A stretch of DNA of 35,405 nt from positions 1 to 35,405 of the forward strand of contig JAUVAV010000030.1 in NCBI GenBank assembly GCA_030591525.1. The letters are read 5' to 3'. Made by a program: the position numbers and the translations under genes. This DNA is from a candidate division FCPU426 bacterium (GTDB taxonomy: Bacteria; Oederibacteriota; JAAXVQ01; JAUVAV01). Shown in pieces: positions 496-32,985 of this stretch (position 1 is the stretch's first letter; each line of letters begins with the position of its first letter). Under the pieces are notes generated by a model. It was not told the DNA's origin and searched no databases. It saw only the letters and a program-made list of their open reading frames with translations.

Positions 496-3400
496 CTACT
501 TATGTATCTTCTGTTTGCTTTGCGCCGGCCGGTTTTTTCCATCTTTGAGCCGTCTTCCGATTTTTCGTGCCTTTTTAAAAATAATGTCTCTATTTGGTAT
601 TAAACTACTCGCTTTTTTTCGCAAATCCAGCCGGGATACCCATGCTTTCCATTTTTCGATTTCCGGTGATATGTAATTGTCAAGCATGGCCGTCTGCCTC
701 GGCCAAATACGGAAGCCGGAAAACGGCCGGGCCATTGCGTGCCCCGCCGTCACTTCCGGGCCGTACGCCATCTCCTCTTTGGCCGCGATGATCATAAAAT
801 GCAGCCGGTTCAGGATATTTACTTCACTGGCCCCGGCGTCCATGTCAAGCGAGAGTAAATTCAATTGAGGAAACATCCCCTTGAGTTTTTTCTCCACGCC
901 CCTTCCGGTAATATGATTGGCAATACAGCCGAAAGGCTGAAGACAGACAATATTGCCGATCCCTTCATTAAGCATGGCTATCATCTCGGCGGTCAAAAGC
1001 CATCCTTCGCCGAACTGATTGGCCAGGCTGACCACCTCGCTCGTGATTTCAGCCAGACATTTCAGATCAAAAGGCTGCCTGTAAAAACGAAAGTTCTGCA
1101 TGACTATGTCAATCTGAGCCAGATGATAACTCACGTAAATATCCATCATCCTGGTTTTCAGGCTGTCAATCAAGGAACGTTTCAAGTATGCTTTTCGATT
1201 GAAATTTTCATTAACCTGCCTCTGGGCAAAAAAGTTCTGCAAGCCGGGAAGAACCACTTCCACTCCCTGGCCGGAGAGCCACTCGATAATATTCCCGTTT
1301 GAAAAAAAGTTGTATTTTACAAATATTTCGCCTACCACCCCAATCCTGGGAACAGGCCGGTCGTCAACCCCAACCTCATTGAAGCCGGCCACCGCCTCTT
1401 CCAGGACTTGGAGCAGGTAATTATAATCAGCCTGTTCAATACCTGCTTCCATCTTTTTGAGATATTTGGTATGCACGGCCTTGGCAATTCCCCGCTGCTT
1501 CTCCCTCACTACAGTGGCCAAGTACATCCGGGCCAGAGGATCGGTGAAAATTACGCCCAGTCCCATTCGTCTTAACAGTCCTTTTTTGTCAATAATAAAT
1601 CCCGGCTGAGGGTTTATAGCCTCAGCCGACAGCGCAGCCACCGGAACATCATGCAGCCCGGCGGCGGCCAGCCCTTTTTTGATAAGGGAAACATAAGAGG
1701 AGGCGCGGCATTGACCCCCGGTCTGAGTCACAATGACCGAAGTATTTTCCGGATCATACCGGCCGGATCGAAACGCCTTAATGATGTCCCCGGCAATAAG
1801 GACAGCCGGATAGCAAATATCGTTGTTTATATTTTTCAGGCCGAATTCCACCGAGGCCTTATCCTGAGGCGGAAGCACATCCACACGGTAGCCCAGGGGC
1901 CTGAAAACAGCCGGAACCAGCGGAGAATAAAAGGGGGAAAAATAAGGGGCAATAAGGGTTTTCTTCCTGTCTTCCGGCATGAAGAGACGGTTTGTTCTCT
2001 TTCTCCCTCCCCTTTCCCCTTGAGGCTTCTCCCGGTTCTCTCTTATCGCTTCCAACATGGAACGCAGCCTGATCCTGACTGCGCCCAGGTTGGCTATCTC
2101 ATCCATCTTGATTAGAGTGTATATCTTTCCGGAATTCGTAATGATATCCCTGATTTCATCCGCAGATACAGCGTCCGGACCGCAGCCAAAAGAGGTAAGC
2201 TGAAGCAATTCAGCACTATGATTTTGGCAAACCCACCTGGCTGCGGCGTAAAGTCTATTGGTATAGTTCCACTGCGTCAGGACATTGACGCCGGCTAAAG
2301 ACAGATTTTCATCTGCCGGTATTGCGTCTTCGCTTATAACATCAACTCCCAGGCGGACCAAGAGGTTGGGAATGCCATGATTTATAAGCGGGTCTATATG
2401 ATAAGGCCGGCCTGACAAGACGATAACGGTTCGCCCTTGCTTTGCGGCCTCACCTATCAGGGCCGCGGCCCTGGCCCTGAGTTCCTGCTTGAATTCTTTT
2501 TGCCTGGCAGCCCCCTGGTCCACGGCCCTCGCTACGGTTGAATAATTGAGGCCAAATTGCTTAAAAAACAAGTGAAGCTGTTTTTTTAACAGATCCTTAT
2601 TCTGAAAGCTGACAGCCGGGGCATCAAGCGGTATTCCATATTTGCCATTAGTATCAATTGCGCTTTTCAGCACATCCGGATACCCGGTAACCACGGGACA
2701 GTTAAAACTGTTCACAGCATCCTGGTATTCTTTTCTTTCGTGAACCACAATCGGATAAAAGATCCTGTCCACTCCCCGGTCCAGAAGATTGAGAATATGT
2801 CCGTGCGCGAGTTTGGCGGGAAAGCAGATATTTTCCGACATCACCGTTGACATCCCGCTCTCAAAAAGCTTGAAATTGGAGGGAGAAGAAAGAACCACCT
2901 TAAAGCCGCAGGCAGTCAAAAAAGCCAACCAGAAGGGATAATTTTCATACATGTTCAGACAGCGGGGAATGCCAAAAGTAAGGATCGGCCGGCCTTCCGG
3001 TTCACTTTTACGATCAAACAGGAGTTTGGTTTTTTCTTCAATCAGATCCCGGCCCCGGTCTTTGGCGGCAGGACTATTGCTAAAACACCGCTCGCACCGG
3101 TTACCTGTAAAAAACCGGTTTCCATTGGCAAATGTGAGTTTCATGACAGCACACCTGTTTTCGCAGCCGTTGCACTCTATTTCTTTACTGGTAAAATCGC
3201 TCCTTATCCCGGAAGCATTTTCAAAGACCGCGAATCCTTTTGATTCATCCGGCCTCGCGCCATGGTTGTTAAGGGCTGTAAGGGCTGCGCCGTATGCTCC
3301 CATGAGCTCCGGAATATCCGGGCGAATAACCTCTTGCTTAAGCAGAATTTCACACGCGCGCAACACCGCGGGATTGCGAAAGGTTCCCCCCTGGGCAATA

Positions 3401-5028
3401 ATCCTGCGGCCTAAATCCCGGGTATCTCTTAGTTTGAGTACCTTGTAAATGGAATTTTTAATTACCGAATAAGCCAACCCGGCCGAGATATCAGCCACAG
3501 TTGCCCCCTCGCGCAAGGCCTGCTTTACCCTGGAGTTCATGAAGACCGTGCATCTGGTTCCCAGATCAAAGGGAGAATTTTTCTCACAGGCTATTTTGGC
3601 AAAATCCGTAATGCTGTATCCGAGGGACCGGGCAAACGTCTCGATAAAAGAACCGCACCCGGATGAACACGCTTCATTTATCACAATATCTGATATGGCA
3701 TGATCGCGGATATAGATGGCTTTCATGTCCTGACCGCCAATATCCAAAATAAAAGAGACATCTTTATCAAAGCGTCTGGCTGCCTGGTAGTGCGCAATGG
3801 TCTCCACCACGCCGTCATTTAAGCCAAAGGCTGCTCTGATCAGGTCTTCACCGTAACCGGTGGCGGCTGTCCGGATAATCCTCGGCTGAAAACCGGCAGT
3901 TATGAATTTTTCCCTGAATACGGACAATCCATCTTTTACCGCCTGGATAGGATCGCCGTGGTTGGACCCATAGTGACCGAGAACAAATCTCCCCTGGTCA
4001 TCGGAAAGGACAAGCTTGGTGGTAGTGGAGCCGGAATCTATGCCCAAAAAAAGGTCCTGGTCTTTTATCGCGGCCAGACTAACCCGCGAGACCCTATCCT
4101 TAGAGTGCTTTGCCTGCCACGTGTTAAATTCAGCCGTGCTCTTGAAAAGCGGGTGAAGTCTTTTGGCCTCCCCGGGGGGTCTGCGGGTTCTTCTACTCCC
4201 GGACAGGGCGAGCAGTTCCTTTATTTTGATCCGGCGAGGCTGTCCCTCCGGCGCCAGGGCCGCTCCCAGGGCAGGGATGAGTTCCGGGTGCCCGGGTACA
4301 ATCAGGTCGCCCGGATTATCTAAGCCGATCACTTTAACCAGAGCCTGCCGCAGTTCCGGATAGAAAGTTAACGGGCCGCCGCCCATTAGTATCTTTTTTT
4401 TAATCTCACGGCCGCGGGACAGGGCGCTTACCGTTTGCAGGGCTACCGCATGAAATACGGAAGCAGCTATATCTGCTTTAGAAACATTTCGGCTTAACAA
4501 AGCCTGGATGTCGGTTTTGGCAAAGACCCCGCACCGGGATGCAATGGGATAAATGGAAACGGCTTTTTCAGCCAGGGCGTTAAATTCCGAGACAGGCACA
4601 TTTAAGAGCACAGCCATCTGATCAATAAAGGCCCCGGTACCTCCGGCGCAGCTTCCGTTCATTCTGATATCCGGACGAAACTGATCATCAAAAAATATTA
4701 TCTTGGAGTCTTCTCCGCCGATCTCTATAAAGGTCCTGGCTTCAGGATAATATCTCTTTACCAGATGGGCGGAGGCAACCACCTCCTGGACAAACGGAAT
4801 TTCAAAAGTCTCCGCCGCTCCCATGCCCGCGGATCCGGTAATTGCCAGATCAAGCTCAACATTGCCCAGCTCACGGAAGGCTTCCTTGAACATTTCCCGC
4901 ACAGTTTCTTCGGTTCTGGCCTGATGACGACGGTAACGGGCAAAAACCAGGTTACCCCCCTGGCCCCATATGACGACCTTGGCCGTAGTAGACCCAATAT
5001 CAACGCCTGTTAGATACACATTTTTCAT
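496..5028 (-). CDS. Giant acyl-CoA dehydratase activase (BadF/HgdC type) with fused dehydratase-like domains
   Basis: 1510 residues. Two ASKHA ATPase domains stand in tandem: residues 1-260 (GVDIGSTTAKVVI; cysteines C127 and C166, the positions that hold the bridging [4Fe-4S] cluster in HgdC-type activases) and about 326-588 (LGIDSGSTTTKLVL; C454, C493). A five-Cys patch follows (CNGCENRC, then CERC, 619-648), then a DUF2229 region (about 680-960) and a second HgdB-like region (about 1030-1440). The last two each carry a [ND]xCxPA motif and an FGC motif. Family knowledge: activases hydrolyse ATP to drive low-potential electrons into 2-hydroxyacyl-CoA dehydratase or double-cubane-cluster proteins. 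The ATG at 5028 has an AGGGG site and overlaps the HD gene by 29 bp. The true substrate is unknown; no separate dehydratase subunits are nearby. Confidence 0.88.
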   Translation of the reverse strand: MKNVYLTGVDIGSTTAKVVIWGQGGNLVFARYRRHQARTEETVREMFKEAFRELGNVELDLAITGSAGMGAAETFEIPFVQEVVASAHLVKRYYPEARTFIEIGGEDSKIIFFDDQFRPDIRMNGSCAGGTGAFIDQMAVLLNVPVSEFNALAEKAVSIYPIASRCGVFAKTDIQALLSRNVSKADIAASVFHAVALQTVSALSRGREIKKKILMGGGPLTFYPELRQALVKVIGLDNPGDLIVPGHPELIPALGAALAPEGQPRRIKIKELLALSGSRRTRRPPGEAKRLHPLFKSTAEFNTWQAKHSKDRVSRVSLAAIKDQDLFLGIDSGSTTTKLVLSDDQGRFVLGHYGSNHGDPIQAVKDGLSVFREKFITAGFQPRIIRTAATGYGEDLIRAAFGLNDGVVETIAHYQAARRFDKDVSFILDIGGQDMKAIYIRDHAISDIVINEACSSGCGSFIETFARSLGYSITDFAKIACEKNSPFDLGTRCTVFMNSRVKQALREGATVADISAGLAYSVIKNSIYKVLKLRDTRDLGRRIIAQGGTFRNPAVLRACEILLKQEVIRPDIPELMGAYGAALTALNNHGARPDESKGFAVFENASGIRSDFTSKEIECNGCENRCAVMKLTFANGNRFFTGNRCERCFSNSPAAKDRGRDLIEEKTKLLFDRKSEPEGRPILTFGIPRCLNMYENYPFWLAFLTACGFKVVLSSPSNFKLFESGMSTVMSENICFPAKLAHGHILNLLDRGVDRIFYPIVVHERKEYQDAVNSFNCPVVTGYPDVLKSAIDTNGKYGIPLDAPAVSFQNKDLLKKQLHLFFKQFGLNYSTVARAVDQGAARQKEFKQELRARAAALIGEAAKQGRTVIVLSGRPYHIDPLINHGIPNLLVRLGVDVISEDAIPADENLSLAGVNVLTQWNYTNRLYAAARWVCQNHSAELLQLTSFGCGPDAVSADEIRDIITNSGKIYTLIKMDEIANLGAVRIRLRSMLEAIRENREKPQGERGGRKRTNRLFMPEDRKKTLIAPYFSPFYSPLVPAVFRPLGYRVDVLPPQDKASVEFGLKNINNDICYPAVLIAGDIIKAFRSGRYDPENTSVIVTQTGGQCRASSYVSLIKKGLAAAGLHDVPVAALSAEAINPQPGFIIDKKGLLRRMGLGVIFTDPLARMYLATVVREKQRGIAKAVHTKYLKKMEAGIEQADYNYLLQVLEEAVAGFNEVGVDDRPVPRIGVVGEIFVKYNFFSNGNIIEWLSGQGVEVVLPGLQNFFAQRQVNENFNRKAYLKRSLIDSLKTRMMDIYVSYHLAQIDIVMQNFRFYRQPFDLKCLAEITSEVVSLANQFGEGWLLTAEMIAMLNEGIGNIVCLQPFGCIANHITGRGVEKKLKGMFPQLNLLSLDMDAGASEVNILNRLHFMIIAAKEEMAYGPEVTAGHAMARPFSGFRIWPRQTAMLDNYISPEIEKWKAWVSRLDLRKKASSLIPNRDIIFKKARKIGRRLKDGKNRPAQSKQKIHK

Positions 5029-5455
5029 CTTTTTTCCCCTTCAAATAATCCCTCACAGAACAAAAGGTGTCCACCATGCAAACAACCAACGATTCCGCAT
5101 AACGGGGAGGTATAATGGTAAGCGGCCACATATGTCTTTTAATAATATCAATTTCTTTGGGGCTTAACTCCGTCAGCCGGCGGGCGTTTGCGAGCGCAAT
5201 ATTGTGGTGTCTGAAACCGTGCAGTCTTGGTCCTTCGCGCATCCAGTCGTAAAAAAAGAGGTCGTGCAGCAAAGCTCCCCGCACTATGGCCCGGCAGTCC
5301 AGTGAGAGTCGTTTGCCCCAGAGAAAGCTCAGCCAGGCCACTTCCTTTACATGTTCCAGCCTGGTTTTAGCCTTGTGGTGATTATACTGCGCGAGGGCTT
5401 TTACCACCGGATGTTCAAGCAGTGGAGTTGCTATTGCCAGGAATTCATCATCCAT
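5000..5455 (-). CDS. HD-domain phosphohydrolase-like protein
   Basis: 151 residues. Metal-binding HD pattern: H35 (TRLEHVKEVA), H64-D65 (ALLHDLFFYDW), a further HH at about 83-84 and an Asp near 128 (VCMVDTF). HD proteins of this small size commonly hydrolyse nucleotides or phosphoesters; no substrate can be named. The start at 5455 shares one base with the stop of the upstream membrane-protein gene (TAATG) and has a GAGG site, so the two are translationally coupled. The 3' end overlaps the start of the activase gene, so all three are probably co-transcribed. Confidence 0.8.
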   Translation of the reverse strand: MDDEFLAIATPLLEHPVVKALAQYNHHKAKTRLEHVKEVAWLSFLWGKRLSLDCRAIVRGALLHDLFFYDWMREGPRLHGFRHHNIALANARRLTELSPKEIDIIKRHMWPLTIIPPRYAESLVVCMVDTFCSVRDYLKGKKDEKCVSNRR

Positions 5456-5973
5456 TATATCCTCTTCTTTTTAGTGCTTTTATTCCGCTCTGTAAAAAAA
5501 ACGGATAAAATAACCGCTCCGGTAAATATCCATTTTACCTCGGGTGCCAGCCAATTAAGCAGGCCTTGGTATGAGGGCAAAATAAAATATTCAAAGGCCA
5601 AGGCAAGCAGTACCCAGTAAAATGAGAATTCCAGGCAGATATACCCCTGGTATTGGAAACGCCGGTCTGAATAATCCCACAGGCGGGAGTTAAAAAAGTA
5701 ATACGCAATAAAGCCGGCAACAAGTTCAACTCCGGTAGTTATCAAAAAGTAACAAAGAACCTTGATAACAATATGGCAGGCATATACAAGAGGAATACAG
5801 ACCATAAGCATCAGGGCGGCTGTGCCGTAAAGCGGAAGATAGGGGCCTTTTAAAAAACCCGGATTAGTAAAGCGTTGGTTACGAAAAGAGCGGTAAAAGA
5901 CCTCCAATATCCAGCCCATAATGGAAAAGAAGCAGAAAGAAAAGAGTATATTCAACAAGCTATCCGGCTGCAT
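5455..5973 (-). CDS. Putative ABC-transporter-permease-like membrane protein (CmpB family, PF06541)
   Basis: 172 residues from the ATG at 5973. About four or five hydrophobic segments are visible. The N-terminal pattern SIMGWILEVFYRS, followed by GFLKGPYLPLYG, is typical of the CmpB family, which is found mostly in Firmicutes. A longer reading from a GTG at 6021 would overlap the ilvE 3' end and has no family support, so it was not used. The ribosome binding site at 5973 is weak. Role unknown: the family name implies transport, but there is no ATPase partner here. Confidence 0.75.
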   Translation of the reverse strand: MQPDSLLNILFSFCFFSIMGWILEVFYRSFRNQRFTNPGFLKGPYLPLYGTAALMLMVCIPLVYACHIVIKVLCYFLITTGVELVAGFIAYYFFNSRLWDYSDRRFQYQGYICLEFSFYWVLLALAFEYFILPSYQGLLNWLAPEVKWIFTGAVILSVFFTERNKSTKKKRI

Positions 5974-5983
5974 AACGCTACGC

Positions 5984-6904
5984 TCAACCAACCCTTTCCA
6001 GCCAGCCGTGAGTATCCTCACGTTCCCCGCGCAACACGCCGAAGAAAGCCTCCTGAATGGCTTTCGTGATTGGCCCGCGTTGTCCCCCGCCGACTTTGAT
6101 TTTATCCACCTGGGTAATGGGCGTAATCTCAGCCGCGGTTCCGGTCATAAAAGCTTCATCCGCAATGTAAATACTCTCGCGCGGCAGAACCTGCTGTTTG
6201 ATTTTATATCCCAGTTCCCTGGCCAGTTGAAAGACACAGTGCCGGGTTATGCCCGGTAAGATGCTTGAGCACGAAGGCGGAGTGAAAATCATATTGTTCT
6301 TCACAATAAAGAGATTTTCACCCGAACCTTCGGAGAGATAGCCAAAGGAATCCAGAGCAATTCCTTCATCAAAGCCATCCTGAATAGCCTCCATTTTAAT
6401 TAGTTGCGAATTCATATAATTGGCAGCCACCTTGGCCAGGCAGGGCATGGTGTTGGGCGCCGGACGGTTCCAGGATGCAATCCGGACCGAGATGCCTTTT
6501 TCGAGCGCTTCTTCTCCCAGATAGGCGCCCCATTCCCAGGCCGCGATCGCGGTCACAACCGGACAGTTAAAAGGGTTCAGACCAAGTGAATGATACCCGC
6601 GAAATACGAAGGGACGAATGTAAGCCGCCTTCAGCTCGTTCGCGATTATGGTATCTTTAACCGCCTCACAAAGTTGATACAAACTATAAGGAACGTCCAT
6701 GCGATATATTTTGGCTGAATCCAAAAGACGTTGCATGTGTTCCTGCAAGCGGAGAATAAACGAACCTTTGGAATTGGCATACATGCGAAGTCCGTCAAAC
6801 GCACAGGAGCCATAATGGAGCGCATGCGAAAGAATATGAATGTTTGCCTCATCCCATAGCATCAATTTCCCATCCATCCAGATGGCTTTTCCCGGGAAAC
6901 CCAT
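5984..6904 (-). CDS. ilvE: Branched-chain amino acid aminotransferase
   Basis: 306 residues, the normal length for class IV PLP aminotransferases. Visible landmarks are the start GKAIWMDGKLMLWDEANIH, the PLP-binding lysine in AKVAANYMNSQL (K158), GYLSEGSGENLF, PSCSSILPGITR and GTAAEITPI near the end. It transfers the amino group between glutamate and the oxo-acids of valine, leucine and isoleucine in the cytoplasm. The ATG at 6904 has a strong AGGAGG site. It follows the porin gene by 30 bp, an unusual neighbour for an amino acid gene, and probably shares its transcript. Confidence 0.95.
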   Translation of the reverse strand: MGFPGKAIWMDGKLMLWDEANIHILSHALHYGSCAFDGLRMYANSKGSFILRLQEHMQRLLDSAKIYRMDVPYSLYQLCEAVKDTIIANELKAAYIRPFVFRGYHSLGLNPFNCPVVTAIAAWEWGAYLGEEALEKGISVRIASWNRPAPNTMPCLAKVAANYMNSQLIKMEAIQDGFDEGIALDSFGYLSEGSGENLFIVKNNMIFTPPSCSSILPGITRHCVFQLARELGYKIKQQVLPRESIYIADEAFMTGTAAEITPITQVDKIKVGGGQRGPITKAIQEAFFGVLRGEREDTHGWLERVG

Positions 6905-6934
6905 AAAAACCTCCTATTTAAAACCCCAAAAATA

Positions 6935-8278
6935 TCAGAAGCTGTATTTTAATTTCAAATATAGCTCGTCATTGTTCTTAACTTTTCCGAAATTGGTAGT
7001 GTCTTTACCATCTATCAAGTAAGCGCCCAGGATTATTTCAGTATTGTCCACAGGATAATAGCTTACTTCAGGAAAAATCATGATTGCATAATTGTCTTCC
7101 CAGGCACTAAAATCCTTGATCTCTCCGCCCAAACCCAGCATGACTTTCAATTCATCATTATAAAACTTCTTTTCAATGCCTGCCATTAAATAATCTCCCA
7201 AATTATCTTTGCCTCGTTCATGTATGAACCCATGTAAATATTGCGCATTTATGTAAAGACCGTTTTTGAAGGTATAATCTCCGCCCACCACATACTTAAA
7301 GTAAGGTTCTGCATCCAGTGCGATAGACGGCTGAACTCCCATTCCCAGGGCGGATAAATCCGTAAGCATCTTAATTTCCTCCGGTAAAAAGGCTGCCCCT
7401 TCGGCCCAGATACCAACTTTGCCAATCGCCCCGGCTAAATCAAGGCCGATCACCTGCAGCCTGGGATAAATCATTTCAGCGTTCACATTTACACTCGTCA
7501 ATCCGGCCGGAGTTATTCCCACCTGGTTGACTAAAGGCAGGTCATCTCTTCCATAAAAATAACTGATTGAGGCATCATAATTAAACAGATTACCCCCTAT
7601 TCTCACGGCTGCCATCGAGCTTTCACCGGGATTATTTTCCGGTAAAATAATGACGTCCTTAAAATTTTCTACCAGCATTCCCGCAGGCAGGGTAAAAGGC
7701 GGCGAAAGCGCTGAAGCCCAGTCTTGGGAAGGAAGCACGGCCGGAGTGAATATGGGAACATAAACCGCGGTGACGTTGAATTCTCCTAAGTAATAAGTCA
7801 TTTTCACCGCATTCGTTCCCAGCTTGCGTCCAAAATCCATTATATCTTCCAGATCATCAGGATTAATATTGTCCGTGGGATTAAGCTTATCCGCTGTTCC
7901 CCAGGCAATCCTCTGCCGGCCGACGCGTAATTCCAGATTATTGCTTAATATTTTGTAAAAATCGACATAAGCCTCCCTGAAATCCAGGACCCAGGGAATA
8001 ACTCTTTCTTTACCGGGTTCCTGCAAATCGCCTGATTGCAACACGCCCGGCACTCCCCATCCTCTTAACCAGACTTCCCCATAAGCGTGGGCTCCGGAAA
8101 TGTCCGAATCCAGTTTGAGCGTCAAACGGTTCTCGTTCCGGACAAACTTATTATTTTCTTCTTCCACCCGGAAGCGGTTATCCGTAAGCACAGAGCCGCT
8201 TATATTTACTTCGGCAAATGCGGCTTTGAAAAACAAGCCTGCAATCATAATTCCCGTCAAAATCATTAATTTGCGCAT
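6935..8278 (-). CDS. DUF1302-like outer-membrane beta-barrel protein
   Basis: 447 residues. A signal peptide (about residues 1-22, cleavage after AAFA) precedes a chain of alternating amphipathic strands with periodic aromatic residues. The C-terminus ends in Phe (LYLKLKYSF), the usual outer-membrane-barrel signature. The segment RVGRQRIAWGTADKLNPTD resembles DUF1302 proteins, which are repeatedly found beside MMPL-type RND exporters and LolA/DUF1329-like proteins. The ATG at 8278 lies 8 bases from GGAGG; the TTG two codons upstream is too close to that site. Probable role: outer-membrane step of lipid or hydrophobic-compound trafficking. It is the best evidence in the window for an outer membrane. 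Confidence 0.75.
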   Translation of the reverse strand: MRKLMILTGIMIAGLFFKAAFAEVNISGSVLTDNRFRVEEENNKFVRNENRLTLKLDSDISGAHAYGEVWLRGWGVPGVLQSGDLQEPGKERVIPWVLDFREAYVDFYKILSNNLELRVGRQRIAWGTADKLNPTDNINPDDLEDIMDFGRKLGTNAVKMTYYLGEFNVTAVYVPIFTPAVLPSQDWASALSPPFTLPAGMLVENFKDVIILPENNPGESSMAAVRIGGNLFNYDASISYFYGRDDLPLVNQVGITPAGLTSVNVNAEMIYPRLQVIGLDLAGAIGKVGIWAEGAAFLPEEIKMLTDLSALGMGVQPSIALDAEPYFKYVVGGDYTFKNGLYINAQYLHGFIHERGKDNLGDYLMAGIEKKFYNDELKVMLGLGGEIKDFSAWEDNYAIMIFPEVSYYPVDNTEIILGAYLIDGKDTTNFGKVKNNDELYLKLKYSF

Positions 8279-8308
8279 ATTCAAATCCTCCTTAACTTAA
8301 AAAACTTT

Positions 8309-9109
8309 CTACTTCCGTTTCAGATAACGCCGGGTAAATAATTCATCCTTCAAGTCCTGATCAAACTTGCTATGGAGAACAATCATCTTGGTTCTGTGTT
8401 CTTTTTTGAGATCACACATCTCCGCCTCTTTGGCTTCCCAATATTTTCCTTTTTTCTCCAGCTTTCTTCTTTCCATTGCTTTCCAGAGCTTTCCTTGCTT
8501 TGAATAATACCGGATTTCAATTGGATAAAAATTATCTTTTCTTATCCGCATGACTAATTTTGAATAATCTTTGTTAATTCCTTTTTTGGGTCTTAGCTCA
8601 AGCTTATAGTATTCAAAAGAAGCTCGTTCCTCTTCCGGCTCGCTTGCAACGAACTCGGGATCATATTCATCGGCAAAATTAATGGCGGCCATGTCATCAT
8701 AGGTAAAATCCGTACCGGCAAAGCTGGTGTTCTTTACATGCGAAGCAATCCGCCGGATTTTTCTGAAGGCCGGCAGATAAAGGTACATAACATCATCAGG
8801 CAAATCCAGAAAGGCCAGGCCTTTCACATCTGCCGGTGATATGAATTTGATCATCCTTTTATCACTGCCTTTTTGCCACATCTTGGCTTCCCGCTTTTTT
8901 TCTTTCCCATTCTTATCAATCAGTATCATTTCCAGGGTGATTTCCTGATCCTGAGGCGCATTGGCCACACTGTCGGCCTTTTTCAGTATTTCCAGAGCGC
9001 TAAGTTTCAACGCTTGGGCTTTTGGTTCTTTCGCTTGGGCCATCGGCGCCATTAGTACAAACATCAACATCCCTATTGGTATTACTCCCAACAAGTTTTT
9101 TTTTCTCAT
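8309..9109 (-). CDS. LolA-like outer-membrane lipoprotein-sorting protein
   Basis: 266 residues with a signal peptide (cleavage after PMAQA, about residue 26). The body shows the LolA-like/DUF4292-type pattern: an early helix (ALEILKKADSVANAP), alternating charged beta strands, DDVMYLYLPAFRKIRRI, FAGTDFTYDDM and KLVMRIRKDNFYPIEIRYYSKQGKLWKAM. Such proteins are predicted periplasmic carriers of lipids or lipoproteins. The ATG at 9109 follows the RND stop after one base, a sign of translational coupling. Acting as carrier between the RND pump and the barrel is an inference from this arrangement. Confidence 0.85.
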   Translation of the reverse strand: MRKKNLLGVIPIGMLMFVLMAPMAQAKEPKAQALKLSALEILKKADSVANAPQDQEITLEMILIDKNGKEKKREAKMWQKGSDKRMIKFISPADVKGLAFLDLPDDVMYLYLPAFRKIRRIASHVKNTSFAGTDFTYDDMAAINFADEYDPEFVASEPEEERASFEYYKLELRPKKGINKDYSKLVMRIRKDNFYPIEIRYYSKQGKLWKAMERRKLEKKGKYWEAKEAEMCDLKKEHRTKMIVLHSKFDQDLKDELFTRRYLKRK

Positions 9110-9110
9110 T

Positions 9111-12107
9111 CTAAACTCCTCCTTTTTTTATTCTGATTTTTCCCAGCTTTTCTCTTTGCTCTATTACCTTTTGTCTGACTTTGTCCTTCAGCCCGGAGGC
9201 TATTTTTCTGGACAGGCGGTCGAAATTACCTATGAATCCCGCCCGGGTTACTAAAATCAAGGCCGGTAAAACTGTAATCGAGGCCAAAGCGCTGAGTACC
9301 ATGGTTAAAGCGATCAGGTAACCAAATCTTTGCATGGGAACAATATTTCCCAAAACCAGCACCAGAAAACCCAGCATTACCGAGACCGCGTTAATAACTA
9401 TCGCCTTGCCGGTGGTTGCCAAAGTCGTATTCAATGCTTCAATTTCCGAATTACAACTGCTGAATTCTTCCTTGAATCTGGTTAGAAAATGAATGGTGTA
9501 ATCGATGCCAATACCCACTGCCACGCTGCCTATCAGGACCGTGACTATATCCAGCGGTATACTAAAAATCGACATTATGGTAAAAGCCGCCAGGATAGTA
9601 AGCACGATGGGGGATAGCGAAATCAATCCGCCGACCAGGGATTTTAACCGGAAGGTAAGCAAAACAAAAACCAGGAAAATGGCAATACTCAGACTTAGGG
9701 CCTGGCTTCGCATTATTTTCTTATCAATATCCATATAAATTATAGGCATTCCTGTTTGTTGCGCCATCAGGCTGCTTTTATTCTCATCCGGATAGTCATG
9801 ATTTTTAAAGATTTCAGTATAGCGGGAACTTGTCAGGACGGCCCAATCTTCATTTATCTCCCAGACATCATCGCGCAGGTCCTTCATGAATCCTTTATTA
9901 TCAGCAAGTTCTTGCGGAAAAAGCGGTCTTAGTTTTTCAATGAGCTGATTGACCTTTTTCCAGCTATTTTCTTCGTTTATAATTGCCGCGATCGATGTGG
10001 CAGTATATTCCAACGCTTCCGGATCTTCAGCGTATAACCTCTCGGGAATATTTTTCCCAAGCAGATTAATAATATCCTTTTCGTCAGGAGTAGTTTGCGG
10101 CAACTTTTTCCCAATGTCCCGGACAATACCAGCCATTACTTTTTCCGAGCTTATTTGAATATCCGCCTCCTCACTATGTAAATAAGCATTGATTTTCGCG
10201 GCTATGGTTTTTATGGAATCAGGATTAAAACCCTCCTGCCCAACGGTCAGACTTGCAATAATTACCGTTTTCAGCTCTTCACCAGAAATCGCGAATTCAC
10301 TTCCTCTTTTTTCGATATCCAGCTTTAGCTGGGATAATATCCGTTCCGCTTTTTCCTTTTTCAGCTCATCAGCCAGTTCATCGGAAGCAAGAGAAATCCT
10401 GAATTTGACCATATCGGTCTTCAGTTCTTCCTGAATATATTTATCAACCGCCTTGACTAAAACATTTAGTTTCTTCGTATTTACTGTGCCTAATTTCGCT
10501 TGCACCAAGCCTTCCGTGGCTTCGCTGTTTATCAGTTGCTCCAATATCTCCTGACCCTCGATAAAAAACCATAGATTCGCCACCCCTTCCCTGGTCCCGG
10601 GAATGGTGGCATGTCCGTTCATCACGCGGTTCATTTCGCAAATCAAGTCGGCAATGGATTGAGGATCATTAACATGGGGTTGGGCTTCCAGATATTTCTC
10701 GAACTTAATTATTTCCTTTAAAACAAAGGGATCTTTCAAATCCCCTTCGATTAATATCTGCATTGGAATAGAACCGCCGAGTTTGCTTTGCATCATCTCC
10801 TCGGCTTGTCTGATCTCACTGTCTTTTTGAAAATAATCAACCATATTAACTTCCCGGTTCAAACGCGGTATTGCGAAAAATCCGATTACTACGGTAGCTA
10901 TGCATATTCCCACAAAGAGCTTTTCATTCCTGAGTACAAATTTCCCCAGTCTTTCCATGCTTTTGGTTGACCAATTATCTTCTATGCCGCCGTGATTTAA
11001 TTTGACTTCCCTGACTTTCAAAAAAGAAAGAACAGCCGGCAGAAAAGTCACTGAAATAATCATGGCAAACATCACGCCCAGGGCCGTAAAAACGCCGAAT
11101 TCCCGGATCAAGCTTAAACTGGAAGATAGAAATGCCAGGAACCCGATCAAGGTAGTAATGCCGGCTAAGAATATAGGAACACCTACCTCGCTCAAGGCGT
11201 CTTTTATTCCCTGGATTTTATCCTCCCCGCGATGAATCTCCTCGTTGTATTTAGAAAGCATATGAATTCCATAGGCGCTGCCAATAGCAACCAGCAAAAC
11301 CGGAATGGCATTGGAGGCGATGCTGAGAGGTATTTTCATTAAACTCATTAATCCCAGAGTCCAGACCGTGCTGATCAACACTGTAATCAATGGCAGAAAA
11401 ACTCCCCGCAGGCTTTTAAAACTAAAATAAAGAGTGAGCATGATAAGTAAGATGACCAGAGGAACGAGTTTACCCAAATCAGCCTTGATTATCCTGTCCA
11501 GGAAAGTCATCTGAAAGGGTATGCCGGCATAGTATATTTTTTCCCGGCCCGGAGTATTTTGCACTATCGTTTTCATTTGATGGGCGAGGGCTACTTTATC
11601 AGCTTCTGCTTTCAGGCGGACAATGATCACGGTTATTTTACCATCAGCCGAAACCAGGCTGCCGCGATACATATCCCTGGAAAGGGTGTATGCTTTTATG
11701 CTTTTTAGTTTTTCCGGGGCCTGGGGAATATTATTTTTATCAATAAGCTTGCCTACTTCCAGGCCGCCCGCAATTTTCTTTATGTCCATAATGTCAGTTA
11801 TGCTCATCACCAAAGAAACATTATCCAGCTCCTGGAATTTTCCAGTAATGCGATTAACCCGGTTTAGCGTTTCATAGTTAAAAACATCCTCGTTTTCCAG
11901 GGCAATCATAGCCAGGGCGTTGCCTCCAAATTTATCCCCAACCTCATTAAAAAGCATTACCAAGGGATCATCCTGGTCCAGGTAACTCAAAATATCGCTG
12001 TTAATCCGGAGGTCTTTGGCAGAATACCCAAGCCCCAAGGTCAATAGTATTGTTCCCAGAATAATTGCTACGCGGAACTTAAGTACAAAATCGGCAAATC
12101 TTCGCAT
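9111..12107 (-). CDS. RND superfamily exporter (MMPL family)
   Basis: 998 residues from the ATG at 12107 (AGGAGGG five bases upstream; the upstream in-frame start at 12143 has none). One TM segment (about 10-30), a large extracytoplasmic loop, a five-helix bundle (about 215-375) with the sterol-sensing-like pattern IGSAYGIHMLSKYNEE, TM7 near 395-415, a second very long loop (about 415-760), then a second bundle containing IGSVAVGIGIDYTIHFLTRF. This two-fold layout is the RND/MMPL plan. The second extracytoplasmic loop is long for the family. It heads the cassette with the LolA-like and barrel proteins and lies behind a TetR gene. Likely substrates: lipids or hydrophobic compounds (inferred). 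Confidence 0.9.
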   Translation of the reverse strand: MRRFADFVLKFRVAIILGTILLTLGLGYSAKDLRINSDILSYLDQDDPLVMLFNEVGDKFGGNALAMIALENEDVFNYETLNRVNRITGKFQELDNVSLVMSITDIMDIKKIAGGLEVGKLIDKNNIPQAPEKLKSIKAYTLSRDMYRGSLVSADGKITVIIVRLKAEADKVALAHQMKTIVQNTPGREKIYYAGIPFQMTFLDRIIKADLGKLVPLVILLIMLTLYFSFKSLRGVFLPLITVLISTVWTLGLMSLMKIPLSIASNAIPVLLVAIGSAYGIHMLSKYNEEIHRGEDKIQGIKDALSEVGVPIFLAGITTLIGFLAFLSSSLSLIREFGVFTALGVMFAMIISVTFLPAVLSFLKVREVKLNHGGIEDNWSTKSMERLGKFVLRNEKLFVGICIATVVIGFFAIPRLNREVNMVDYFQKDSEIRQAEEMMQSKLGGSIPMQILIEGDLKDPFVLKEIIKFEKYLEAQPHVNDPQSIADLICEMNRVMNGHATIPGTREGVANLWFFIEGQEILEQLINSEATEGLVQAKLGTVNTKKLNVLVKAVDKYIQEELKTDMVKFRISLASDELADELKKEKAERILSQLKLDIEKRGSEFAISGEELKTVIIASLTVGQEGFNPDSIKTIAAKINAYLHSEEADIQISSEKVMAGIVRDIGKKLPQTTPDEKDIINLLGKNIPERLYAEDPEALEYTATSIAAIINEENSWKKVNQLIEKLRPLFPQELADNKGFMKDLRDDVWEINEDWAVLTSSRYTEIFKNHDYPDENKSSLMAQQTGMPIIYMDIDKKIMRSQALSLSIAIFLVFVLLTFRLKSLVGGLISLSPIVLTILAAFTIMSIFSIPLDIVTVLIGSVAVGIGIDYTIHFLTRFKEEFSSCNSEIEALNTTLATTGKAIVINAVSVMLGFLVLVLGNIVPMQRFGYLIALTMVLSALASITVLPALILVTRAGFIGNFDRLSRKIASGLKDKVRQKVIEQREKLGKIRIKKGGV

Positions 12108-12192
12108 GCTTTCCCTCCTGCTTTCCAAAGTCATACAGTACAATGTAAAACATATGCGTTTTCTGTTCGGTTTCAGCCCAAAAAAATATATG

Positions 12193-12774
12193 CTATTTCT
12201 TCACTATCCCGTTAAATAATATTTCTAATAGCTTATTCAGGTTGTCTTCCAGCTCCGGCACCGGAATTTTCATGGTCCAGGGATATTCCAGGCCCTTCAA
12301 AGCAGAAATAATAGCAAACGAGGTCAACTCAACATCCGGCGCTATAAATATCTTCGTGGCTATTCCCTCGTCTAATATCGCTTTGACGGTTTCTATTTCT
12401 TCCTTATAATTATTCTCCCGCGCCTTCTCTATAAAAGCGTAGTGAGTTAAATATTCGTCCTTTAAAGCCGCGTAAATATTTACCAACTCGCTTAAATATT
12501 TCATTCTGGTTATAATAAAAGCTTTTATTTTTCCTTGTGGTGTTTCCTCTTTATTAACCGCTTCCCTGATTTTGCTGCTTAATATTTCACTTTCCTTATT
12601 TATAACTTCCCGGAAAATATCTTCTTTGTTCCGGAAATAATGGTAAAGAGAAGCTTTGCCCATGCGTGCGGCCTTGGCAATTTCATCAATAGTTGTTTTA
12701 AGAAAACCAAACCGGGAGAAAAGCTCCTGGGCTATATCTACGATAATCCCTTTTCTGTTTGTTCTCTCCGGCAT
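12193..12774 (-). CDS. TetR/AcrR family transcriptional regulator
   Basis: 193 residues. An N-terminal TetR DNA-binding domain (IVDIAQELFSRFGF; helix-turn-helix TTIDEIAKAARMGKASLYHYFRNK, residues 27-50) is followed by a helical ligand domain of unrelated sequence. The start at 12774 has AAGGAG 8 bases upstream; a longer frame from 12939 runs back into the aspA-like gene and lacks TetR similarity. It precedes the RND exporter by 85 bp on the same strand. Its likely job is to repress itself and the RND-LolA-barrel genes until a hydrophobic ligand binds. Confidence 0.92.
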   Translation of the reverse strand: MPERTNRKGIIVDIAQELFSRFGFLKTTIDEIAKAARMGKASLYHYFRNKEDIFREVINKESEILSSKIREAVNKEETPQGKIKAFIITRMKYLSELVNIYAALKDEYLTHYAFIEKARENNYKEEIETVKAILDEGIATKIFIAPDVELTSFAIISALKGLEYPWTMKIPVPELEDNLNKLLEILFNGIVKK

Positions 12775-12789
12775 CAATACAACTCCTTT

Positions 12790-12852
12790 GAAACTTTTTC
12801 GAACATTTTCGTTTCCGATTCTAATTGTGCCATTTATCCTATTTTTTGTCAA
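12790..12852 (-). promoter_or_regulatory. Promoter and possible operator of the tetR gene
   Basis: Reading the minus strand, TTGACA (12852-12847) and CACAAT (12829-12824) are spaced by 17 bases, a good sigma-70 fit. Between this and the ribosome binding site lies a 26-base dyad with GAAAC/GTTTC arms (12790-12815), in the right place for a self-repressing TetR operator. The -35 box touches the end of the aspA-like gene. The dyad has only 5-bp arms, so its role is uncertain. Confidence 0.5.
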
Positions 12853-14282
12853 CCAGAAATTTTGTTTTTGATGTTTTTCTGATTTTTTTCGACAAAGCCG
12901 AGCGCATTGACGGCTTGCGGCGCCAGCAAAGCTTGACATTTTTCCAAGGTCAAGCCGGCAATTTCATTCGCCGCCTGCTCAAATGGGAGTTGCTTTTCCT
13001 GCATGAGTTTTGCCACTTCAGCGGCCTGGTGGTATCCAATCAGTGGCACCAATACAGCGGCTATTGCCTGGCTGCGGCAGGCATTTTCACGGCACTTCTT
13101 TTCATCGGCCTGGATTTGCCGCAAACACTTTTCCGCTGCTAAATGATCGGCCGCCTGCAACAGGTCCAGAGATTCCAGCATGTTCAAAGCTATAAGCGGA
13201 AGAAAGGCGTTCAACTCCAGTTGTCCGGAACCAGCGGCCCAGGTTATGGCTTGATCAAATCCAAAAACCTGGATGGCCACCTGTGTAAGCATCTCCGGTA
13301 TTACCGGATTAACTTTATGGGGCATAATCGAAGAGCCGGCTTGCAGCGCCGGCAGTCTTACTTCCCCGATACCGGCATCCGGCCCCATATTAAGCAAGCG
13401 GAGATCACCGCTCATTTTCATTAAATTCATGGCATGGGTTTTAATCATACCCATAACCTCGACCAAAATATCCTGATTTTGAGTGGCTTCCAGCAGGTTT
13501 TCCGCCCGCGCCAGCGGCAGGCCGGTTATAACGCGCAATTCCTCGCCAACCTGAAAAATATACTTACGGGGTGCACCCAAACCTGTCCCAATAGCAGTCC
13601 CGCCTAAATTCACGACCCGGATACGCTCAGTGCATTTAAAAATCCTCCAGCGATCGCGGGCTAATACTTCCGCCCAGGCGCCAAAGGCCCGGCCCAAGGT
13701 CATGGGAACAGCATCCATTAATTCCGTACGTCCGATTTTAAACACATGAGAAAACTCTTGTTCTTTTTCCTGGGCCGCCGCTTGTAATTGCGTTACTTCC
13801 TTTTCAAGCTCTTTTAAGGCCTTAAATACGGCAATCCGCAAGGCGGTAGGATAAGTATCATTGGTGGATTGGTGCAGGTTTACATGATCAAGCGGATCGC
13901 AATGGGTATAATCCCCCGGTTTTTTACCCATAATTTGCAGCGCGCGATTGGCAATCACTTCATTGATATTCATATTAGTGCTGGTCCCGGCGCCGCCCTG
14001 ATAAGCATCCACCACAATCTCTTCATCCCATTGACCGGCCAACACTTCCGAGGCCGCCGCCTGAATAGCGTTACCCCTATGCTCCTCAAGGTATCCCAAC
14101 CTTTGATTTACCCGGGCACAGGCCAATTTCACCTCGCCATAAGCATGAATCAGCCGTGGGGGTACCCGGCGCGAAGAGACCTTAAAGTTTTCCCGGGCCC
14201 TTTCAGTATGAATACCCCACAAGGCATTTTCCGGCACTTCCCTTTCACCCAAAAAATCTTTTTCCATCCTGAATTTTTCCAT
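12849..14282 (-). CDS. aspA: Aspartate ammonia-lyase (fumarase/aspartase superfamily)
   Basis: 477 residues, normal for the family. The superfamily signature GSSIMPHKVNP is at 316-326, with the catalytic-loop serines S317/S318. The N-terminal LGEREVPENALWGIHTERARENF and GRTELMDAVPMTLG fit aspartase better than fumarase C, which usually has a T in DATP. The reaction is reversible deamination of aspartate to fumarate and ammonia. The ATG at 14282 has AAGGGG seven bases upstream. A fumarase or other lyase role cannot be excluded without a tree. The gene stands alone between tetR and the transposon remnant. Confidence 0.85.
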   Translation of the reverse strand: MEKFRMEKDFLGEREVPENALWGIHTERARENFKVSSRRVPPRLIHAYGEVKLACARVNQRLGYLEEHRGNAIQAAASEVLAGQWDEEIVVDAYQGGAGTSTNMNINEVIANRALQIMGKKPGDYTHCDPLDHVNLHQSTNDTYPTALRIAVFKALKELEKEVTQLQAAAQEKEQEFSHVFKIGRTELMDAVPMTLGRAFGAWAEVLARDRWRIFKCTERIRVVNLGGTAIGTGLGAPRKYIFQVGEELRVITGLPLARAENLLEATQNQDILVEVMGMIKTHAMNLMKMSGDLRLLNMGPDAGIGEVRLPALQAGSSIMPHKVNPVIPEMLTQVAIQVFGFDQAITWAAGSGQLELNAFLPLIALNMLESLDLLQAADHLAAEKCLRQIQADEKKCRENACRSQAIAAVLVPLIGYHQAAEVAKLMQEKQLPFEQAANEIAGLTLEKCQALLAPQAVNALGFVEKNQKNIKNKISG

Positions 14283-16271: not shown

Positions 16272-16407
16272 AATACCCATACGGTCCTCGGCAGAGCCTC
16301 GGAATGAGATACTTATTTTTTCTCTTGCCCTGCTTTTTCATAAATGACATGATTGATTTTACTTAAGGTTGTTTTCGCAACAAGAACTAATTAGGAAGGT
16401 AAGAAAA

Positions 16408-17199
16408 ATGTATAAGTTGAACAGAATAATTTTGTTTTTAATATTTACTGTATCATTCATACCTTTGGCGATTGCCAAGGATTTGGATTTAACCATAGTT
16501 TATGATAATAATCCCTATGATGAAAAGTTAGAAACAAGATGGGGCTTTTCCTGTTTGGTAGAAGGACTTGAGAAAACCATTCTTTTTGATGTCGGGGGTG
16601 AGGGTTTGGTGCTTCTTCGAAATATGGCAAAGCTCAAAATCGACCCCCGGGACATTGAGGTAGTAATACTTTCCCATATTCACTATGACCATATTGGCGG
16701 GCTATCCCATTTTTTGAAGAAAAATGCCTTGGTCACCGTTTACCTGCCAAGTTCTTTGCCGCAAAGCGTCAAGGATAAAGTCAAGGATGCGGGCGCCAAA
16801 TTAATTGAGGTTCATGGTTCCACAGAAATCTGTAAAAACGCCTATTCTACCGGGGAACTCGGAACCTGGATAAAAGAAGAATCCCTGGTAATAAAAACAA
16901 AAAAAGGATTAGTAATAATTACAGGTTGTGCTCATCCCGGGATTGTAGCTATAGTTGAAAAAGCAAAAGAAATGCTTAAGCTTAATGTTTATTTAGTATT
17001 GGGCGGTTTTCATTTATGCTGGATGAATGCCTGGCAGATAAAGGGAATCGTTAAAGAAATCAAGCAAGAAAATGTTGAAAAAGTAGCTCCATGTCATTGT
17101 TCCGGCGGCCTTGCAAGGAAAGTCTTCGAAAAATTTTATGGGAGAGAATTTATTCCTGCCGGTTGTGGAAAAAAGATAAAAATAAAGGATGCTTTCTAA
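16408..17199 (+). CDS. Exported metallo-beta-lactamase-fold hydrolase (DHPS-like)
   Basis: 263 residues from the ATG at 16408 (AGGAAGGT upstream); a TTG start at 16369 was rejected. A probable signal peptide (1-23, ending AIA) is followed by the MBL metal motif HIHYDH (H90, H92, D94, H95), TGCAHPGI (H176), GGFHL (H202) and APCHC (H230). The TGC.H.GI/GGFHL/PCHC set matches the branch related to the archaeal dihydropterin-ribofuranosylaminobenzene phosphate synthase (MJ0301 type). The actual substrate is unknown. A paralogue without a signal peptide lies at 19065-19886, and the DNA is clearly AT-richer than the nif or tetR regions. Confidence 0.85.
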   Translation: MYKLNRIILFLIFTVSFIPLAIAKDLDLTIVYDNNPYDEKLETRWGFSCLVEGLEKTILFDVGGEGLVLLRNMAKLKIDPRDIEVVILSHIHYDHIGGLSHFLKKNALVTVYLPSSLPQSVKDKVKDAGAKLIEVHGSTEICKNAYSTGELGTWIKEESLVIKTKKGLVIITGCAHPGIVAIVEKAKEMLKLNVYLVLGGFHLCWMNAWQIKGIVKEIKQENVEKVAPCHCSGGLARKVFEKFYGREFIPAGCGKKIKIKDAF

Positions 17200-17232
17200 T
17201 TCTTTAAACCCGGTTGGATAATTTGGGTTGTT

Positions 17233-17931
17233 ATGTCTAATGGGAAATGGGGAGATTTCAGAAAAATGGGTCAGGCAAATTTATTATCTAACGGGGTAAA
17301 ATTACTGATAGCCGGTTTTACTATGGGTTGGGGGCCTTGTCTCACCTTTACTGCTCCCTTGCTTTTGCCTTATATTGGGGCAACAAAAAAAGATTGGCAG
17401 GGCGGCTTAAAAGTGGGATTGATATTTTCAGGTGGCAGACTTTTAGCACTTGCCATTTTGGGTGGACTTGCAACTGTTGCCTTCGGTTTTATTAATCGGT
17501 TTTTTCCGCCGCAAAAATCCGGTTGGCTCTATTTAATTGTGGCCTTTTTCATGATAATATTAGGGATACTTATTACTTTAGGCAAAGGATTTAAGCTGCA
17601 CATTGGAAAGAGTATATTAGATAAAGATCTCAAAAGTATGTTCCTCTTTGGTTTTTTAATGGGCATTGCCCCCTGTGTTCCCTATGTGGCAATTCTCACC
17701 TATATTGGTTGTGTAGCGGAAAACATTCCTCTTAAAGGCATGTTTTATGCGGTATTGTTTGCAGCCGGCACGGCAATTGCGCCTATAGTGCTGGGGGTTT
17801 TGATGGGTATCATTCCAGGAAAACTACTCAGGTCAAATAAATTGCTCAAGATTTTTCAGATAGTTTGTGGAGTTGTTCTCCTGCTTTTTGGATTTCAGCT
17901 TATTTATTATGTATTTAAGGTTATTAGATAA
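17233..17931 (+). CDS. CcdA/DsbD-like integral membrane protein
   Basis: 232 residues with about six TM segments in two similar halves. Each half carries a proline-cysteine pair in its first helix: GWGPCLTF (C36) and GIAPCVPYV (C148), the arrangement seen in CcdA/DsbD thiol-electron transporters and some related transporters. The first ATG (17233) has a weak ribosome binding site; an ATG at 17266 behind GGGGAG is a possible alternative. It is followed after two bases by the UPF0282 gene, so they are co-transcribed. Electron or ion transport is an inference from the fold. Confidence 0.75.
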   Translation: MSNGKWGDFRKMGQANLLSNGVKLLIAGFTMGWGPCLTFTAPLLLPYIGATKKDWQGGLKVGLIFSGGRLLALAILGGLATVAFGFINRFFPPQKSGWLYLIVAFFMIILGILITLGKGFKLHIGKSILDKDLKSMFLFGFLMGIAPCVPYVAILTYIGCVAENIPLKGMFYAVLFAAGTAIAPIVLGVLMGIIPGKLLRSNKLLKIFQIVCGVVLLLFGFQLIYYVFKVIR

Positions 17932-17933
17932 AA

Positions 17934-19022
17934 ATGGAAATTGAGATCCTGGGAGCGGAATCTTTGGGGGTTAGAGGTTTATGCTGTTTTATAGAAACTA
18001 AAAACAAAAAAATATTAATTGATCCGGGAATAGCTTTAGGTTATCACAGATATGGATTGCCTCCTCATCCTTTTCAGATAGCAGTAGACGAAAGAATACA
18101 AAAAAGGATTTTAGATAGATGGAAAGAAGCCACGGACATAATTATAAGCCATTATCACGGAGACCATATTCCTCTAAAAAACGCAAATCCTTACCAGCTA
18201 AGTTTAAAGAAAGTTGAAGTAAAACGAGACGTGAGTTTCTGGTGCAAAGGTTCTGATTCTCTTTCCCCAACCATGCTTGAACGTTATAAAGATTTATCAA
18301 AAGTTTTTAAGTTAAAAAATGCGCAAGGCAGGAATTATAAATCTTTAAGTTTTTCCAGACTGGTTCCTCATGGAGAAGCAAATAATGATTCCGATACAGT
18401 TATGATGACCAGAATCAAGGAGGATAATTTAGTATTTGTGCATGCCTCGGATATTCAACTCCTTAATAATGGAGCGATTGATAAAATATTATCCTGGTTT
18501 CCAAATATAGTACTGGCAAGCGGTCCTCCTCTTTATTTATCTGAATTTCCTAAAAATAAAATTAAAACCGCGTGGCATAATGCCGAACGGCTCTCCTCTA
18601 AAGTTGATATCTTAATTCTTGACCATCACCTAATGAGAAATCTTGAAGGGCTCAAATGGTTAAAACGCCTGTCTCTTAAAACCGGCAAAAAGGTTATTTG
18701 CGCCGCTGATTTTATGAAAAAACCCAGAATGCTGTTTGAAGCCAAACGTGAGCAGTTGTATAAAGATATCCCTGTTCCTGAAGGGTGGCACAAAGATTAT
18801 GCCAGGGGTAAGGTCAATACTAAATCTTATTGGAATAAGGCTGCAAAACTTTACCCCGTTAGAAATCCCGCGAACTCTACTATTATCCAATTCCCCGCTC
18901 TAAAGAGCGGGGAATTGGATATGATCTGTAGAAAACCATTATTACTATCCCGCTTCATCCCCGGCTTGAAAGCCGGGGAATTCGCGGCTAACATATTAAA
19001 TGAAACTTCCTTTGTTTTTTAA
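17934..19022 (+). CDS. UPF0282-type metallo-beta-lactamase-fold protein with a repeat-derived tail
   Basis: 362 residues. The metal motif HYHGDH (H73, H75, D77, H78) follows LIDPGIALGYHRYGLPPHP, and later HASDIQ and LILDHHLMR fit the UPF0282 family, found mainly in archaea, whose members are about 300-310 residues. Residues from about 309 onward are encoded by palindromic repeat copy B (18858-19000), so the last 50 or so residues look like translated repeat rather than family sequence, and the native end has probably been lost or displaced. Function is unknown. The start abuts the CcdA-like gene. Confidence 0.8.
   Translation: MEIEILGAESLGVRGLCCFIETKNKKILIDPGIALGYHRYGLPPHPFQIAVDERIQKRILDRWKEATDIIISHYHGDHIPLKNANPYQLSLKKVEVKRDVSFWCKGSDSLSPTMLERYKDLSKVFKLKNAQGRNYKSLSFSRLVPHGEANNDSDTVMMTRIKEDNLVFVHASDIQLLNNGAIDKILSWFPNIVLASGPPLYLSEFPKNKIKTAWHNAERLSSKVDILILDHHLMRNLEGLKWLKRLSLKTGKKVICAADFMKKPRMLFEAKREQLYKDIPVPEGWHKDYARGKVNTKSYWNKAAKLYPVRNPANSTIIQFPALKSGELDMICRKPLLLSRFIPGLKAGEFAANILNETSFVF
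18858..19000 (-). repeat. Palindromic composite repeat, copy B
   Basis: The outer arms are GTTAG..CCGCGAA (18858-18874) and TTCGCGGCTAAC (18981-18992). Inside are a palindrome around GCTCTAAAGAGC within a 46-base block (18887-18932) matching 14818-14863 on the other strand, and a 9-bp hairpin CCCCGGCTT/AAGCCGGGG (18959-18978). The end TTTAATATGTTA (minus strand, 19000-18989) equals the start of copy A. It lies inside the UPF0282 reading frame. Confidence 0.8.
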
Positions 19023-19064
19023 GTTCATGTCATTTATAACGGGGGTTTACAAGATGATAAAATT

Positions 19065-22521: not shown

Positions 22522-22522
22522 T

Positions 22523-26723: not shown

Positions 26724-26734
26724 AGTATTAATCC

Positions 26735-28093: not shown

Positions 28094-28098
28094 TTTCA

Positions 28099-29457: not shown

Positions 29458-29480
29458 TGTTCGCCTCCGCGCTCTTTAAC

Positions 29481-30857: not shown

Positions 30858-30881
30858 GAGAGTTCTCCTATGATTAAAGTA

Positions 30882-32504: not shown

Positions 32505-32521
32505 TTTATTCCCTCCTGTAA

Positions 32522-32902: not shown

Positions 32903-32922
32903 AATTACATTCCTTTCTGTGC

Positions 32923-32977
32923 CGGCATTTGTGCCGCATTATCCGGAAATTTGTAAGTATTGCAGGGATGCCCCTGC
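32923..32977 (-). other. Two small hairpins between nifI1 and nifI2
   Basis: CGGCA/TGCCG with a 4-base loop (32923-32936) and GCAGGG/CCCTGC with a 4-base loop (32962-32977). Neither is followed by a T-run, so simple terminators are unlikely. They may stabilise or process the mRNA so that the nifH part accumulates above the rest. Confidence 0.4.
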
Positions 32978-32985
32978 TCCCAAAC

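Follow-up and report, generated by a model that had tools for sequence, protein, structure and literature searches.

The 1510-amino acid protein studied here is predicted to be an ester reductase of the PlsA type, built as a single chain and active on membrane phospholipids, an assignment that we consider likely. Its gene lies in the window, which is the whole 35,405-nucleotide stretch of DNA analysed from a candidate division FCPU426 bacterium. The family of the protein is already known: it comprises the anaerobic plasmalogen synthases (PlsA), which are relatives of glycerol ester reductase (Ger). The initial annotation, made from the sequence of this DNA, missed that the architecture belongs to this described PlsA/Ger family. 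Jackson 2021 and Sahonero-Canavesi 2022 are cited as its founding papers. The PlsA-type identity is proposed because of the domain layout, the clade of the protein, 33 discriminating alignment columns, fold matches, and lipid-type neighbours. As the product, we favour a vinyl ether (plasmalogen) over its main rival, a saturated ether.

The gene is an intact open reading frame (ORF) with an ATG start on the minus strand, as determined by ORF analysis. The Pfam scan of the protein returned two BcrAD_BadFG and two DUF2229 stretches; the ORF and the two BcrAD_BadFG stretches bear out the earlier description of a 1510-residue chain with two ASKHA domains. The features of the gene are as follows.

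496..5028, minus strand: whole gene of the predicted PlsA-type ester reductase, 1510 aa (ORF call, Pfam, cysteines, trees)
4255..5007, minus strand: Act1, first ASKHA activator domain, residues 8-258, with C127 and C166 (PF01869; sequence match to HadI/HgdC)
3274..4047, minus strand: Act2, second ASKHA activator domain, residues 328-585, with C454, C458, and C493 (PF01869; fold match)
3085..3195, minus strand: cysteine patch, residues 612-648 (conservation; beta strands in the model)
2014..3045, minus strand: Red1, HgdB-like half, residues 662-1005, with C735, C777, and C949 (fold match; DUF2229)
769..1956, minus strand: Red2, residues 1025-1420, with C1072, C1107, and C1368 (homology to Red1)
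499..768, minus strand: C-terminal tail, residues 1421-1510 (motif EKW[KR][AS]WV[ST]xL)

The motif [ND]xCxPA occurs at residues 733 and 1070, and FGC at residues 947 and 1366, so that both C-terminal regions carry the two motifs, as had been noticed before. The division of this part into two halves also stands; their limits are about 662-1005 and 1025-1420 rather than the 680-960 and 1030-1440 given originally. On sequence comparison, Red2 corresponds to PlsR in the two-gene species. The tail motif was present in 10 of the 10 close-branch members examined. An amphipathic helix in the tail found no support: in 8/8 tails, 532 to 1888 of 2000 shuffles reached the observed moment. In the window genome (96% complete), the only BcrAD_BadFG matches at 1e-3 were the two inside the PlsA-type gene, and an Rfam scan of the window gave zero matches.

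AlphaFold2 models were obtained for residues 1-1020 (pLDDT 84.1, pTM 0.74) and residues 600-1432 (pLDDT 88.6, pTM 0.87). Act2 matched the folds of MbdQ (Z 28.8), HadI (Z 28.3), and HgdC (Z 27.3). The fold matches of Act1 were mostly other ASKHA kinases, with pantothenate kinase at the top (Z 19.7); Act1 was assigned as an HgdC/HadI-type activator because of its sequence match. The activator traits of HgdC and HadI were thus found as an ASKHA fold with two cluster cysteines (by fold in Act2, by sequence in Act1), not as a separate small protein. Red1 (residues 668-1002) matched HadBC (Z 14.7), BzdNO (Z 14.3), and DCCP (7yzm_A, Z 14.2), and the next other matches stood at Z 8.2. Red2 had no HadBC match of its own among the VIA rows (mainly over Red1), and its Rossmann-type matches had Z of 8.2 or below. 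In a profile alignment, Red1 and Red2 matched each other with an E value of 2.8e-13, and C735, C777, and C949 faced C1072, C1107, and C1368. Since Red2 is without a HadBC fold match, its HgdB-like nature is taken from the profile match to Red1. The expectation of an HgdB fold in the C-terminal regions therefore held for the first half, and the second gave no match by itself.

The Foldseek superposition onto the HgdB-type fold was loose (best E 1.2e-5, target TM 0.50, rmsd 8.8 Å). When the C-terminal part was used for sequence-profile searches of solved structures, no HgdB-type match reached significance. Pfam HGD-D matched 21 of 57 relatives weakly (E up to 1, best 6.4e-6). It also matched two distant relatives out of six, in one case above the cut-off. 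The HgdB kinship of the C-terminal part is thus visible only in the modelled fold and in weak Pfam HGD-D hits. Taken together, the models and the profile comparison agree with two proposals of the initial annotation, namely that activator and acceptor modules are joined in one chain and that the protein is akin to the HgdB/benzoyl-CoA reductase/double-cubane superfamily.

The conservation of the cysteines, a check that the initial annotation had itself put forward, was evaluated in 77 full-length relatives. This set consists of 80 loci minus L035, a fragment, and L071 and L097, for which the longest-plus-strand-ORF rule picked the wrong ORF. Fifteen cysteines were invariant in 77/77, which exceeds what chance would give: C127 and C166 in Act1; C454, C458, and C493 in Act2; C619, C622, C626, and C645 in the patch; C735, C777, and C949 in Red1; and C1072, C1107, and C1368 in Red2. 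The pair of cysteines ascribed to each ASKHA domain (C127/C166 and C454/C493) is therefore fully conserved. The patch, which holds C619, C622, C626, C645, and C648 in the 1510-aa protein, is upheld in its first four cysteines; C648 was variable among the 77 relatives. Most of the fifteen cysteines were also kept in every row of a larger alignment, with 45 near rows and 27 distant ones. Residue 458 was cysteine in 45/45 near rows and threonine in 27/27 distant rows. With gaps counted, cysteine was missing from distant rows at positions 1072 and 1107 in 2 of 27, at 1368 in 3, in the patch in 2, and at 127 in 1. The first alignment had suggested a loss of C777 in distant relatives (alanine in 4/6); this was taken for misalignment because cysteine stood there in 27/27 distant rows of the larger alignment. 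Two sets of diverse sequences (26 and 23) had no invariant cysteines beyond the three of Red1 and the three of Red2.

These counts bear on the type of cluster. BzdO is described as binding a single [4Fe-4S] cluster through Cys95, Cys128, and Cys380, and BzdN as using six cysteines for its double-cubane cluster (PMC11971306). The three-cysteine pattern of each dehydratase-like module is comparable with that of BzdO, and the cysteine spacing in Red2 (35, 261) resembles the BzdO spacing (33, 252). We infer that Red1 and Red2 may carry one [4Fe-4S] cluster apiece. The BzdNO and MbdONPQ proteins share the fold of the window protein, whereas the six-cysteine double-cubane site of BzdN contrasts with the three invariant cysteines in both window halves.

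The layout Act1-Act2-Red1-Red2 is shared with PlsA and with PlsA plus PlsR. PMC12838417 models PlsA as these four domains and reports one ORF for it in E. faecalis, L. cremoris, and B. longum and a plsA-plsR gene pair in C. perfringens. Listeria orthologues of PlsA are reported in a review (PMC9702350). The Listeria monocytogenes protein was 40.8% identical over 95% of the window protein, and a near-complete Listeria record held one locus matching it. A Fusobacterium gene pair (975 + 404 aa) and the Clostridium-type split pairs aligned end to end with the window protein. Among 31 genomes of one Clostridium genus, 6 had split pairs, 23 had single genes, and 2 were without a match at 1e-30. The split pair L175 measures 4,202 bp with the stop codon added, a length similar to that of the 4,199-bp C. 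perfringens fragment described in PMC12838417. Identity of the window protein to the anchors used was 41-43% for the PlsA part and 32-34% for the PlsR part; these anchors are PlsA orthologues by literature, not the biochemically tested proteins themselves.

In a FastTree tree of 72 sequences, the window protein fell in a 44-member clade with Listeria and with the split Fusobacterium and Clostridium pairs (support 1.0). The same clade was recovered by IQ-TREE with 37 sequences (support 100); the IQ-TREE supports were taken after re-rooting, so that a label may shift by a node, and values of 46 occur inside the close branch. Inside the clade, the window protein sits in a supported branch together with Desulfobacterota-type and Bacteroidales sequences, and the anchors form the sister branch. 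No tested member was found in the window branch; judged by the anchors, the tested enzymes that the papers name lie in its sister group. The near clade is set apart from the 27 distant rows by 33 columns, and in all of them the window protein has the near-clade majority residue. Its common ground with PlsA and PlsA plus PlsR thus consists of the clade, the conserved cysteines, and a pair each of activation and reduction/dehydration domains; the C-terminal tail and the CmpB-HD neighbours described below belong to the window branch.

A Ger-like glycerol ester reductase would use the same machinery, with a saturated alkyl ether as its product, at sn-1 and perhaps at sn-2 too. We regard this as unlikely, though a reading to be taken seriously. 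Ger is described as a PlsA homologue that gives alkyl ethers (PMC8788747, PMC13274423, PMC11150832), and Ger of T. maritima and D. alkenivorans as a PlsA homologue with two activation domains; it is likened to the window protein by description, not by sequence, and differs in its alkyl ether product. The two Pfam activation domains (BB) of the window protein form the layout that PMC13274423 ties to Ger, and close relatives occur in Desulfobacterota-type genomes, the group of D. alkenivorans, for which Ger has been shown according to PMC11150832. However, BB was found in all 12 activator-bearing relatives scanned, including the Listeria, Fusobacterium, and Clostridium PlsA-type proteins. BB therefore fails to decide between PlsA and Ger, and the number of Pfam activation domains seems to be no criterion for separating the two. 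In a tree without a named Ger, the window protein also lies within the PlsA clade, away from other Desulfobacterales families. A search for Ger by protein mass, set to a D. alkenivorans-like pair (159 + 153 kDa), returned 13 proteins in 7 genomes and no firm identification. A 2026 paper states that sequence does not yet separate PlsA from Ger (PMC13274423).

The fold superfamily is shared with enzymes of CoA thioesters, and relatives are annotated publicly as 2-hydroxyacyl-CoA dehydratase or acyl-CoA dehydratase activase. A fused radical dehydratase or reductase of the HgdABC or benzoyl-CoA reductase type is nevertheless very improbable: the nearest relatives are PlsA-type proteins, and the neighbours in the window and at L185 are lipid-type, not those of a CoA pathway. 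HadBC/HgdAB with HadI/HgdC resemble the window protein in the folds of Act2 and Red1, but they are separate proteins with CoA-thioester substrates, whereas the window protein is one chain. We give even less credence to a low-potential reductase that would use ATP and a double-cubane cluster to reduce small molecules. A device of this kind had been suggested in the initial annotation, which was probably wrong as to cluster type. The folds of Red1 (Z 14.2) and the activator recur in DCCP and DCCP-R, but HadBC (Z 14.7) and BzdNO (14.3) fit Red1 equally well, and the window protein is closely akin to PlsA. The double-cubane reading was set aside because each half has three invariant cysteines against the six ligands of DCCP; the activator is, moreover, fused in the window protein. 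A PlsA-type ester reductase thus remains the preferred reading.

The gene is preceded by the following features.

5000..5455, minus strand: HD-domain protein, overlapping the start of the PlsA-type gene by 29 nt
5455..6021, minus strand: CmpB (PF06541) membrane protein with several hydrophobic segments, abutting the HD gene (Pfam)
5984..12939, minus strand: upstream same-strand run of class IV aminotransferase, DUF1302-like, LolA-like, MMPL, and TetR genes (ORFs, Pfam)

The HD protein matched Pfam HD slightly below the 22-bit cut-off (E 0.00062, 20.5 bits). Past HD and CmpB, the order is class IV aminotransferase, then an outer-membrane-like protein, LolA-like, and MMPL; from their spacing, the genes of 5984..12939 may belong to the same unit as the PlsA-type gene. 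The initial annotation named an HD protein and a lipid-transport cassette as neighbours. HD, LolA-like, and MMPL are present, although the direct neighbours are HD, CmpB, and the class IV aminotransferase. HD was directly upstream in 9/9 close relatives (the window, L028, L029, L030, L145, L146, L147/L180, L148, and L150/L184), counted over loci with upstream DNA; L035, L037, L153, L154, L185, and the second G146 copy were left out. CmpB was the next gene after HD in four of the nine and fused with HD in another four (L029, L030, L146, and L150); in L180, it lies 1.5 kb further upstream, with an AbiEii-type gene between. Outside the close branch, CmpB adjoins the PlsA-type gene only in L063, L078, and L102 among the 80 loci. 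Common descent contributes to this pattern. As a set, the remaining window neighbours were not seen again among the relatives; only TetR recurred, upstream in 4/9 (L028, L030, L150/L184, and L180) and 29-32% identical to the window TetR. Among open-licence papers, no match by title or abstract start was found for plasmalogen with PF06541, CmpB, or the HD domain. The lipid-type neighbours were LolA-like and MMPL in the window, LpxR in L180, and the pair downstream of the gene in the sister genome, described next.

At L185 (G003), the PlsA gene, 93% identical to that of the window, is followed by genes for a patatin-like phospholipase and a PAP2 phosphatase (3769-5737). AbiEii-type nucleotidyltransferase genes lie near two PlsA genes (L180, 6892-7623; L185, 6530-7288).

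No dehydratase genes occur elsewhere in the window, as first stated; another contig of the genome, however, encodes a single stand-alone HGD-D protein (HgdB-like, about 334 aa; G000, C17:7708-8652, L186). No separate BcrAD_BadFG activator for it was found in the window genome. A nitrogen-fixation cluster lies at 25842-34271 on the minus strand, with NifH, two P-II regulators, NifD, NifK, and NifE above the NCBIfam cut-offs and NifN-like and short NifB-like proteins slightly below them. Beside it (21352-24106, minus strand) is an ABC transporter set of solute-binding protein, permease, and ATPase; as a guess, it is perhaps for molybdate. Three metallo-beta-lactamase-fold proteins and a DsbD-like membrane protein are encoded in a row at 16369-19886 on the plus strand.

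Among 45 genomes of the phylum, a match at 1e-100 was found only in the window genome and in one genome of the same family (93% identity); many others had relatives at about 25% identity. The nearest records were Deltaproteobacteria MAGs (74-76%), followed by Desulfosarcina widdelii and an Acidobacteria MAG (64%), and Desulfobacterales genomes reached 73%. The gene was probably gained horizontally from a Desulfobacterota-type donor. Contamination is disfavoured because a copy is present in the second genome of the same family.

In the proposed mechanism, Act1 and Act2 would pair as a pseudo-dimer around one [4Fe-4S] cluster with C127, C166, C454, and C493 as its ligands; a small electron carrier would charge this cluster. 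ATP hydrolysis on the ASKHA domains would push the electron, perhaps via the cysteine patch, to the [4Fe-4S] clusters of Red1 and Red2. The sn-1 ester carbonyl of the phospholipid would there be reduced step by step to a hemiacetal, which would lose water to give the vinyl ether. CmpB and HD may assist at the membrane. More tentatively, and with less than even confidence, CmpB, HD, and PlsA might form a three-part membrane machine in the Desulfobacterota-type branch, in which CmpB and HD would present, process, or release the lipid and the tail would dock, the set having moved horizontally into the window lineage.

The synthesis of ether lipids in anaerobes has been assigned to genes only recently, and the chemistry is unproven. 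What the analysis adds is modest and consists of the CmpB-HD pair as partner genes, a tail specific to the branch, and the lineage of the host. The invariant cysteines provide a residue map for mutagenesis, with four in the activator domains, four in the patch, and three in each reductase half, together with C458 of the activator part. The conserved CmpB-HD pair offers a role that can be tested by co-expression. With this case, the range of PlsA-type enzymes takes in a small phylum about which little is known.
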